Shown in pieces: positions 40,450 to 64,000 of a stretch of 64,000 nt of DNA. Below the pieces are notes generated by a model, which saw only the letters and a list, made by a program, of their open reading frames with translations, was not told the DNA's origin and did not search any database. Within the stretch, counting starts at the first letter, position 1. Each line of letters begins with the position of its first letter. The position numbers and the translations under genes are program-made. The DNA is from Panorpa germanica (Eukaryota > Arthropoda > Insecta > Mecoptera > Panorpidae), in assembly GCA_963678705.1 (NCBI GenBank), contig OY783203.1, positions 7,378,001-7,442,000 on the forward strand, written 5' to 3'.

Positions 40450-41650
40450 CCGGTCACTGGGTGTGATTTCCGATATGATATAAAGCGGGTCTCTTGATAT
40501 CTCGGCGCTATTACTCTGTTCTCATGTTCCGTACGGACAATGTGTGTGTTGAGTTGGCCTAGGGCAGGGGCAAAGTGGGTGTAAGTCGTGGAAACGCGGA
40601 GGGGATTGAAGAACTACTGTATTAACACGAATAGGAATGTGGTAGGGTTTTAGGGTGTCACAAGCCATTCAAGAGCCGTGTCTCTTGAGTCGTCTGGATC
40701 GAGGGGAACCTCTGTCCCCTGTTATAACCGGATCTTCTCTCAAAACTTTGTTAGAGTATAAGTTCACAGCGTGTAGTGTATGGTACACTCACCACAACGT
40801 CACCACAACACTATATGAGTTTCCATCGTTTTCCAGCGTTTCCCAATGCTTCAGGAGGCCTCAGTCGCAGCGACCGCTATTGATCCGCCCCTCTCCTCTT
40901 TTACGTTGCCCCGCCAAAGGCCATCGCCCGCCAAACGGCCGCCCGCCGTCTCCTGCTTTCTCGGTGCAAGTATCTACCACCCGTTACCCGTTGCAAACAA
41001 AAATCCCTTCTATGTTTAAATTCTTACAAACATCTAGGAAAGTATTTCAATTACCGCGACGTTTCGCAATTCATTTCACACGGATCACATATGATGTTAT
41101 CACTACAAGCACAAGACAAGCACAAGCACCAAGTACAACCTCAACCAGACTTCTTGGAATTTACTCCATTGAAATAGTCAATGTTCCAAAATAAATAAGT
41201 ACCGCCACAAAATTACACCTCATGCCAACAAGAACAGCGTACGGAGAAAAGTCAGGACGCTGAGAAATTGTTCTCCTTTAAATAGATTGCATGAGGTTTC
41301 TGCGGCTTAAAAGGGACCACGGTTATGTATGTACAACTAGAGGAGTAGAAGGAGTAGAGAGAGTGGAGGGATCGTTTGCGTACGTCGTTCTAACGGGCCA
41401 CTTGGCGCCTTCTTTGATACGTTGTGCGTGTTGTTTGTCGTGACAGCACAAGTGTCACAGCATTGTCTATTTTGACGCGTTATGTAACAACACATAGCCT
41501 GCTGCCACTTAAAGCCACCCTGCCACCCCGCCATCCTACCACCCCCTGTTTGGTGGTCCTCCTATAATCACAGAGTGAGGCACTGCACACTGAGGACCCA
41601 TCCTCCAGTTATCCAGTATCCAGCATCCAGAATCCCGCAGGCCACATCAG
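40450..41650 (-). promoter_or_regulatory. GC-richer island, possible promoter and 5' noncoding exon
   Basis: For 1.2 kb the composition changes sharply, with many CpGs (CCGCCCGCCGTCTCC, CGCCCGCCAAACGGCCGC). On the minus strand a strong splice donor, GTGAGTGTAC, follows 40793. The exon before it would contain only short upstream ORFs, as in a 5' untranslated exon. The plus-strand frame 40655-41194 (179 codons, serine/arginine/proline-rich) has no recognisable domain and is best explained by GC-rich composition. A link to the minus-strand LRR gene 28 kb downstream is conjecture. Confidence 0.35.
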
Positions 41651-61697: not shown

Positions 61698-62311
61698 ACT
61701 TGTAAAGCAAAATAAGTGGTTTCAACCTGGACTGTATTTATCATTTTTGGTAAGCGGCCATGGATCTATTAAAGCAAAGTTAGTCCAGCTTGGAGTTGAG
61801 AGTAATGATAGGTGCAGATGTGGTGAACGGGAAACACTGATGCATATATTAAAAGAATGCACAGACTACTATGAAGCGAGAGTGAAATTTCAAGATAGAA
61901 TAAAAGTCAGAGAAATTGGAAGTCTAGAGTATCTAGTAAATGAAGAGATTAGGTATCGATACTATAATGAGTATGCGAAGGAGATTTTTGAAACTAGGAA
62001 AATGCTATTGAAGAATGATGAAGTAAGAAGAAGAAGAGATGCAGAGACAATAATAGGAAGTGAAGGAAAGGAATTAGAGCAAGGGAATTGGGATAATTTC
62101 ACGGTGGATGAGATTGAACAGTAAATTAGATAAAATAGTTATAGTAGAGTTATAATAAGTTACCTTGTACATATTTTATTTGTTCCTATATAAACATATA
62201 TTAATGTAATTGAAATGTAAAATTAAGGGGGATAGAATAAGTGGAAAAAGCAGCACATATGGGCGGAAGCCTAGGAGGTGCTATTAAATTTAATAAATGA
62301 AAAAAAAAAAA
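61698..62311 (+). mobile_element. 5'-truncated LINE with 12-bp target duplication and poly(A)
   Basis: A direct repeat, TGGCAGTAGCCT, at 61686-61697 and 62312-62323 brackets a 614-bp insertion ending in about 13 A residues. It is 5' truncated and carries only the ORF2 C-terminus and 3' UTR. It belongs to a different LINE lineage from the one at 30.6 kb, judged by the knuckle spacing and the poly(A) end. Confidence 0.9.
61720..62124 (+). pseudogene. LINE ORF2 C-terminal domain, intact frame
   Basis: The frame is open from before 61720 (FQPGLYLSFLVSGHG) to a TAA at about 62124. It contains the SGHG motif after the RNase H or thumb region, then a CRCGERETLMHILKEC knuckle (C-x-C-x7-H-x4-C), and ends in a charged tail (VDEIEQ). 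This arrangement is usual at the end of R1/Jockey/I-type ORF2 proteins. It is undamaged, so the insertion is young, but it lacks catalytic domains. Confidence 0.85.
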
Positions 62312-63007: not shown

Positions 63008-64000
63008 CTACAGACTGTCACTGTCGTCACTATCGCTGCTTGTTTGATCTGTATCAAAAACCATTTCTTCATCGTAGGTCTTAGAGCAACTGCTGGTGGG
63101 CTCAGCATCACTTTCTTTACAAATGCTTCTTTCTTTACAAACGCTGTTACTCTCATCTAATTTAGCTTTTTTTCCTTTTTTCTCCTTACGTTTATCAGCT
63201 TTGCGTTTCGACTCTAATTCATAAAGGGGACGACGTTTGCTAGTAGAAGCACCCATACTAGCAACTAAAGAGAGTTTAGCAGCCAAATTTTTAAATTTCC
63301 TTTTCTTACTAGCTCTACTACCTTTTTTAGTTTTAAATAATTTAAGTAATGATTTTCTAAAATCAAAGCCTCTTGATGGTGGAGTCGAGGGGGGTGTTTT
63401 TGGTCGTTTAGTACATGTTTCAGGTGCTGAACTATTTTTCGGACCAATATCTTCTTTAGGTGGTGCAGTTAAGCTTGGGACAGTAGTATTCTTTTGATGT
63501 TTCAAATAATTAGCCAAGAAATCTCTATTCTCATATAATTTTATAATTTTTGCTGCAAGTTCTTTCATGTATATCGCTTCTAATTCGGATATGTCTCCCC
63601 CAGTTGATACCTGTGACGCTACAACAAGTTTGTCTTCAACTTGGACGGACACCAGCTTACTTAAATCACTATCTAATATATATCTACGGTGTCCAACTAG
63701 CTTTACAAAGTCTACGAAGGTTCTGTTATCATGTATAAGTTCAGAAAACTCCGGAAAGTGGAACCGGTACCACGTGTATAACCTTTTAGTAAACACTTCA
63801 ACACTCTTTTCTATTGTTTCTACCAAACCTTGTATGTTGACAACTTGATTGTTTTTAGGTGTAGGAGGTACAGTCTCAATATATTTCGAAGTGGATTGAA
63901 TTACTTCTACAGTCACGCGGCCTCCTTTAGGTGTATCCTTCAACAGGATGTGCAAATGTAGACGAAGACATCTTATTAGTTCCTGAACCGCAATATCAGA
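63008..64000 (-). CDS. NOP56-like protein lacking the Nop-domain core (partial)
   Basis: A minus-strand ORF of 330 visible codons, open to the window edge, so the start is outside. NOP56 is a core protein of box C/D snoRNPs, which guide 2'-O-methylation of rRNA in the nucleolus. In visible numbering, residues 1-25 (ELIRCLRLHLHILLKD) match the end of the NOP5 N-terminal domain. Residues 60-115 match NOSIC (SVEVFTKRLYTWYRFHFPEF, then LIHDNRTF and LVGHRR). Residues 116-170 match the helical region up to LANYLKHQ. The expected Nop domain (about 150 residues with GxxVGARL and GAEKALFRA) is then absent. A short VPSLTA and possibly LAAKLSLVASMGA look like its edges. The rest is a lysine-rich tail with nuclear-localisation-like clusters and an acidic serine end (SSDSDDSDSL). 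No introns or stops interrupt it. It is probably a diverged paralogue or retrocopy, not canonical NOP56. The small overlapping frames on both strands are shadows. Confidence 0.75.
   Translation of the reverse strand, partial: SDIAVQELIRCLRLHLHILLKDTPKGGRVTVEVIQSTSKYIETVPPTPKNNQVVNIQGLVETIEKSVEVFTKRLYTWYRFHFPEFSELIHDNRTFVDFVKLVGHRRYILDSDLSKLVSVQVEDKLVVASQVSTGGDISELEAIYMKELAAKIIKLYENRDFLANYLKHQKNTTVPSLTAPPKEDIGPKNSSAPETCTKRPKTPPSTPPSRGFDFRKSLLKLFKTKKGSRASKKRKFKNLAAKLSLVASMGASTSKRRPLYELESKRKADKRKEKKGKKAKLDESNSVCKERSICKESDAEPTSSCSKTYDEEMVFDTDQTSSDSDDSDSL

Follow-up and report, generated by a model that had tools for sequence, protein, structure and literature searches.

A probable NOP58 retrogene with a gutted Nop core in the scorpionfly Panorpa germanica

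To our knowledge, NOP58 is an essential core protein that is single-copy in the organisms usually studied. An account of yeast Nop58 assigns the binding of Nop1 (fibrillarin) to the N-terminal domain and dimerisation to the coil in the middle, while the Nop domain is described as binding to Pih1, part of the R2TP loading complex, and, by archaeal analogy, to an L7Ae/Snu13-type protein together with RNA (PMC4165372); the archaeal Nop arrangement is reported to be alike (PMC7089733). The same yeast account includes nop58-3', a laboratory deletion allele that lacks the last 83 residues and causes a growth defect (PMC4165372). As for ribosome-assembly genes that multiply on a sex chromosome, a described case is that of the X-linked Esf2/ABT1 duplicates of Drosophila, which are reported to be testis-biased in two species, D. 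melanogaster and D. sechellia, to preserve the ABT1-like RNA-binding domain, and to have gained disordered regions in three suzukii-subgroup species (PMC12470439). Here we describe WIN, a gene of P. germanica that resembles nop58-3' in being a NOP58 minus part of the Nop domain, but is a natural gene. Like the Esf2/ABT1 duplicates, it comes from a gene for ribosome assembly that has multiplied, apparently on the X, and its disordered-looking region recalls those gained in some of their species, whereas its RNA-binding core has been lost. Among the listings shown in a literature search that covered few subscription papers, neither retrogenes of NOP58 nor a NOP58 lacking the Nop core were seen to be described. 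We judge WIN to be a real, selected, NOP58-derived gene, namely, a diverged retrogene whose RNA-binding core has been gutted.

The window, i.e., the whole 64,000-nucleotide stretch of DNA that was analyzed, spans C21:7378001-7442000 (contig OY783203.1; P. germanica, Mecoptera). C21 is apparently the X chromosome, as inferred from its agreement with the published assembly figures, which list the P. germanica X at 47.99 Mb (PMC11464959). For P. cognata, the X gene content is reported to be common to Drosophila Muller element F (PMC10715201). WIN lies on the minus strand at C21:7441011-7442324. A sequence-only reading of the window had pointed to a single open frame of 330 codons at its end; this frame is indeed present, and the longest stop-free run elsewhere reaches 182 codons (any frame, window positions 1-63000). 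The frame is open but incomplete, as its upstream continuation on the contig runs without interruption to an ATG at C21:7442324, giving an intronless gene of 438 codons (476 codons stop to stop) that includes an NOP5NT domain. WIN thus extends 324 bases past the window, which carries its 3' three quarters (Table 1). Only one other frame of at least 130 codons occurs in the window, a 179-codon frame at 40655-41194 on the plus strand, located in the most GC-rich 2 kb (0.42). A plus-strand frame of 125 codons at 61747-62124 gave a weak, sub-cut-off match (E 0.096) to the zinc-binding part of reverse transcriptases, and is perhaps a LINE fragment.

Table 1. Features of WIN located in the window (window coordinates)
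Feature	Position	Strand	Basis or remark
WIN open frame, residues 109-438 and stop codon TAG	63008..64000	-	Codons 1-108 fall outside the window
Possible poly(A) signal AATAAA, two bases after the WIN stop codon	63000..63005	-	Sequence only
Part of the linker that joins the N-terminal domain to the coil, residues 109-167	63824..64000	-	Invariant-residue alignment
Coiled-coil (NOSIC), residues about 168-287	63464..63823	-	Sole match to Pfam Nop
Eroded Nop core and basic stretch, residues 289-390, net charge +24	63155..63460	-	Alignment, charge count
Relic of the last Nop-core helices, residues about 339-394, overlapping the basic stretch	63143..63310	-	Similarity to X8.072
Acidic C-terminal tail rich in serine (residues 391-438; net charge -10)	63011..63154	-	Charge count

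Pfam profiles detected NOP5NT at residues 3-62 of WIN (E 5.8e-9; 36.6 bits versus a cut-off of 27) and PF01798 Nop at residues 169-288, matching profile positions 2-120 of 228, with no other Pfam match. When the window part alone was searched, the same positions 2-120 were matched at E 7.9e-20, leaving positions 121-228 unmatched. Because the sister copies described below match PF01798 in full, this profile comprises both coil and core. The sequence-only reading had seen the coil of a NOP56 retained without the Nop core. Its coil was recovered, but in a NOP58 derivative; similarly, the core part of the profile was unmatched as it had claimed, but the core has not vanished cleanly: it is eroded, and a relic of the final helices persists. 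The basic-then-acidic tail that it had described was borne out by the charge counts (Table 1). As regards the lysine-rich KKE/KKD tail of NOP58, WIN has a basic stretch, but its C-terminal end is acidic (Ser/Asp). The tail of WIN falls on the disordered side of the charge-hydropathy plot. Scanning the tail alone gave no Pfam family over the cut-off (best E 0.18), and an alignment-free structure prediction for the 330 residues encoded in the window was not usable (pLDDT 42, pTM 0.22).

To place WIN among its relatives, the whole assembly (464,208,970 bases in 249 contigs) was scanned with PF01798, giving 16 matches with E up to 0.001, all of which were scored. They fell on canonical NOP58 on C13, canonical NOP56 on C19 (three pieces; a gene separate from WIN, as the sequence-only reading had envisaged), PRP31 on C2 (four pieces, identified by the adjoining Prp31_C matches), a copy on C11, and the loci on C21. 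Besides WIN, six intronless NOP58-like loci lie on C21 within 0.8 Mb, at 7.942, 8.0725, 8.2226, 8.2274, 8.2323, and 8.2392 Mb, and the open X copies cross the first two parental NOP58 junctions without an intron. The sister copies at 8.07 and 8.22-8.24 Mb are, like WIN, intronless, NOP58-derived, and situated in the same 0.8 Mb region; unlike WIN, X8.072 and X8.239 keep the Nop core. The copy at 7.94 Mb is broken into two separate open frames, one holding the N-terminal part and the other the coil and core. At 8.22-8.24 Mb (loci L013-L015), three near-identical tandem copies with about 4.8 kb spacing are accompanied by one inverted copy. The coding DNA at 8.2274 and 8.2323 Mb is identical, and the copy at 8.2226 Mb differs from these two by 5 synonymous and 0 other changes. 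Comparison of X8.228 with X8.239 gave dN 0.043 and dS 0.073, and dN 0.082 and dS 0.071 for the C-terminal part. We consider the sister X copies to be under constraint; WIN itself has no close copy. The C11 copy (C11:4659593-4660249, minus strand) is a NOP56/58-type frame of 307 codons that has no NOP5NT match and lacks the GAEK stretch; it keeps the coil and most of the Nop core, including 24/27 core hydrophobic positions, which would make it roughly the reverse of WIN. A 13-row tree grouped it with the X clade, but on a branch of 3.1, and this position may be due to long-branch attraction.

Several lines of evidence placed WIN with NOP58. Searched against the PDB, the full WIN protein matched human NOP58 best (2.8e-42) and yeast Nop58 next, with human NOP56 at 3.2e-26, whereas the 330-residue window part alone matched human NOP56 best (7.4e-22), making the NOP56 label of the sequence-only reading understandable. 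A 12-row tree of the N-terminal half was then built, in which WIN, X8.072, X8.228, and X8.239 represented the X loci and two near-identical X copies and the broken one were left out. These four loci formed one clade (support 100/99) that was sister to the chromosome-13 Panorpa NOP58 (96/95) within the NOP58 side (100/100). A constrained tree with a NOP56 origin of WIN was rejected (AU p = 0.007), and so was one in which WIN was grouped with NOP58 alone (AU p 0.004). The terminal branch of WIN was long, 1.37 in this tree and 1.01 in the 13-row tree, and a seven-row tree did not place WIN (support 50/20). Given the rejected constraint and the best match of the full protein, the NOP56 identity was abandoned.

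The start of WIN, MLILIENAIGLAIFRLLDEEKL, aligns gap-free with that of Panorpa NOP58, MLVVFETPAGYAFFTLLDEEKL, and the two proteins share descent, the NOP5NT domain, and the coil. WIN differs from NOP58 by its eroded Nop core, the lost GAEK, the absence of introns, its location on the X contig, and apparently also by an acidic Ser/Asp end in place of the KKE-type tail. The parental NOP58 was modeled with five exons of 45, 77, 1149, 130, and 264 nt, set by hand from GT/AG sites and homology and without transcripts. The WIN frame runs unbroken across the first two parental junctions, showing the intronlessness by which retrogenes are recognized. At such divergence, a poly(A) tract and a target-site duplication would be expected to have worn away.

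Erosion of the Nop core was quantified by counting the residues that are identical in four NOP58 (human, yeast, Chaetomium, and Panorpa), with the linker taken as NOP58 67-157. Of these invariant residues, the NOP5NT, linker, coil, and core of WIN keep 8/14, 6/25, 24/56, and 14/54 (45/54 aligned), respectively, and those of X8.072 keep 10/14, 12/25 (22 aligned), 32/56, and 39/54; X8.228 and X8.239 each keep 34/54 in the core. Between WIN and X8.072, core retention differs at p = 2.6e-6 and coil retention at p = 0.19. Within WIN, NOP5NT plus coil retain 32/70 versus 14/54 for the core (p = 0.026), whereas no such difference occurs within X8.072 (42/70 versus 39/54; p = 0.19). Positions that are always hydrophobic, in the four NOP58 for NOP5NT and in four NOP58 plus four NOP56 elsewhere, were also compared. 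WIN keeps 14/14 of them in NOP5NT, 16/19 in the linker, 24/30 in the coil, and 9/27 in the core (6/27 being gaps), and X8.072 keeps 12/14, 15/19, 28/30, and 24/27; in the core of X8.239, 23/27 are kept. GAEK, the signature of the Nop core, is found in all eight reference rows, X8.072, and X8.239; it reads GAEN in X8.228, and GFDK stands at the aligned columns of WIN. About 16 residues are missing after this site in WIN, a gap that an earlier alignment puts elsewhere.

Some of the core nevertheless survives, as the WIN tail can still be aligned to the final Nop helices in X8.072. The local score was 66 against a shuffle mean of 32-33, and was reached by 0/1000 shuffles of the whole tail and 1/1000 of residues 289-395. 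The score against X8.228 was 55, reached by 0/1000 and 3/1000 shuffles, respectively. Comparisons of the tail with parental NOP58 (75/1000 shuffles with the whole tail, 80/1000 with residues 289-395) and with NOP56 (64 and 55) were not significant, which speaks against our reading. This alignment with the sister copy's helices ruled out a clean deletion or replacement of the core. A core hidden by a frameshift was also rejected, as the other two frames over residues 285-400 scored within shuffles (80-349/500 and 173-402/500) and hold 4 and 25 stops. The gutted Nop core of WIN has become a basic stretch of disordered appearance, behind which comes an acidic tail, and we regard the NOP58 origin together with the gutted core as nearly certain.

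The overall pS of WIN is 0.73 to NOP58 and 0.69 to X8.072, placing synonymous sites near saturation. The sequence-only reading had argued that the frame was held open and had not decayed. This was examined by a neutral simulation of 2000 copies (substitutions only, with AT-rich base frequencies chosen by the analyst), in which copies at 0.1 substitutions per site carried about 7 to 8 stops and 0.1-0.15% were stop-free, and from 0.25 substitutions per site upward 0/2000 remained without a stop, upholding the argument. When just the tail was considered (codon 289 onward), the stop-free share was 7.5-11% at 0.1 and 0.45-0.6% at 0.25, and it had fallen to zero at 0.5. Furthermore, the base composition of the tail is uneven by codon position, with a chi-square of 19.1 that was not reached by any of 2000 segments of 450 bases drawn at random from the window. 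Relative to NOP58, the NOP5NT, linker, coil, core, and residues 351-395 of WIN have pN of 0.33, 0.49, 0.45, 0.54, and 0.57, against pS of 0.77, 0.82, 0.75, 0.63, and 0.64, respectively. As no neutral copy stayed open at such divergence, selection held the WIN frame; it did so most clearly on NOP5NT, and the coding nature is judged to reach through the tail. We strongly infer that selection kept WIN coding while it diverged. WIN is likely still to be a functional protein. It could alternatively be a decaying retrocopy caught ahead of its first stop, since core pN comes close to pS, including over residues 351-395, and one copy of the X cluster is itself broken. This is nevertheless very improbable, as the divergence is far too large for a neutral frame to have remained stop-free, NOP5NT is constrained, and the hydrophobic pattern is kept. 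There is next to no chance that WIN is part of an intron-containing NOP56 or NOP58 gene with its Nop core encoded by an exon elsewhere, the case that would have overturned the sequence-only reading. The genome-wide PF01798 scan found no Nop exon neighboring WIN, the nearest further C21 match lying at 7.94 Mb, 0.5 Mb away, and the WIN frame passes both early parental junctions without an intron.

With NOP5NT and coil kept but the Nop core lost, WIN should therefore meet partners but not load on RNA. Its N-terminal domain would contact fibrillarin, and/or its coil would pair with NOP56 or a sister NOP58 copy. Without the Nop core, there would be no docking on the 15.5K/SNU13-RNA platform, and WIN would not be loadable by R2TP. 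Such a protein would mimic NOP58 without carrying RNA, and would hold or divert NOP56-fibrillarin, perhaps in germ cells. We put this explanation as a whole, a selected NOP58 derivative acting as an RNA-free partner-binding mimic, at slightly under an even chance, and partner-binding mimicry by WIN, taken singly, remains a tentative proposal. Binding to NOP56 or fibrillarin may have been lost, because so few of the invariant residues of coil, NOP5NT, and linker are kept (24/56, 8/14, and 6/25). WIN might instead be functional but outside the snoRNP, its NOP5NT-coil half being a scaffold or self-dimeriser without NOP56 or fibrillarin and its basic/acidic tail serving chromatin, the nucleolus, or another role in germ cells. 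This reading, less favored but still a serious one, is consistent with the poor retention of the linker and the disordered-looking tail, and has a precedent in the Esf2/ABT1 duplicates (PMC12470439), while the kept hydrophobic positions of NOP5NT (14/14) and coil (24/30) speak against it. A new mode of RNA binding, in which the lysine-rich stretch binds RNA non-specifically and keeps WIN in snoRNPs or on pre-rRNA, would fit the strong positive charge of residues 289-390 and the partial derivation of this basic stretch from the last Nop helices. It is improbable, because GAEK is gone and just a third of the core hydrophobic positions (9/27) are kept; basic stretches of this kind also commonly serve as nuclear or nucleolar signals.

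As for where the proposed mimic would act, germ-line expression of WIN is about an even guess. It is drawn from the testis bias of the X-linked Esf2/ABT1 duplicates and from P. cognata, in which testis-only genes are reported to be equally common on the X and the autosomes (PMC10715201). A testis role is weakened by the same P. cognata source, which reports that male gonads express X-linked genes at a lower level than female gonads do, and that the X is poor in male-biased genes (PMC10715201).

Motifs resembling docking sites of PP1 were seen in the sister copies. In PP1 regulators, SILK is reported to precede RVxF (PMC3792071). With hand-written SILK and RVxF patterns, X8.072 (L012 3541-4950, plus strand; 8.0725 Mb) was found to carry SILK at 440 and RSVRF at 462, and X8.239 (L015 2667-4262, plus strand; 8.2392 Mb) SILK at 502 and KRIRF at 524, in both cases 22 residues on. 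Shuffling the last 60 residues reproduced such a pair in 0/20000 trials for X8.072 and 3/20000 for X8.239. The RVxF pattern is loose, since alone it also matches NOP56 (KVKF). X8.228 has SILK alone, and at 8.22-8.24 Mb the RVxF end occurs in the inverted copy and is absent from the three tandem copies. The scan found neither motif in NOP58, WIN, or the C11 copy, so a PP1-docking pair in WIN was rejected. The doublet in X8.072 and X8.239 predicts a candidate recruitment of PP1 by a NOP58-like protein.

The X contig also holds a SNU13-like frame (C21:33451811-33452155, minus strand) with 52/113 residues identical to the SNU13 on C10, an acceptor-like CAG at the same place as in that gene, and human 15.5K as its best PDB match (1.1e-35). 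By these similarities, the X is judged to carry a diverged SNU13/15.5K paralogue. An extra fibrillarin copy as a partner was rejected, the genome scan giving one place only, with four matches on C16. It is conceivable, though unlikely, that scorpionflies have evolved a second, X-linked box C/D snoRNP set, probably germ-line, made up of PP1-docking full-length NOP58 copies, the diverged SNU13, and the autosomal copy without the N-terminal domain, with WIN as an inhibitor or assembly brake.

A natural, selected derivative of NOP58 in which the half that binds partners is kept and the half that binds RNA is lost would offer a ready-made separation-of-function protein, from which it would become clear whether RNA-free mimics can control snoRNP proteins. 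With the WIN cluster, insects provide a further instance of ribosome-assembly genes that have multiplied on a sex chromosome.
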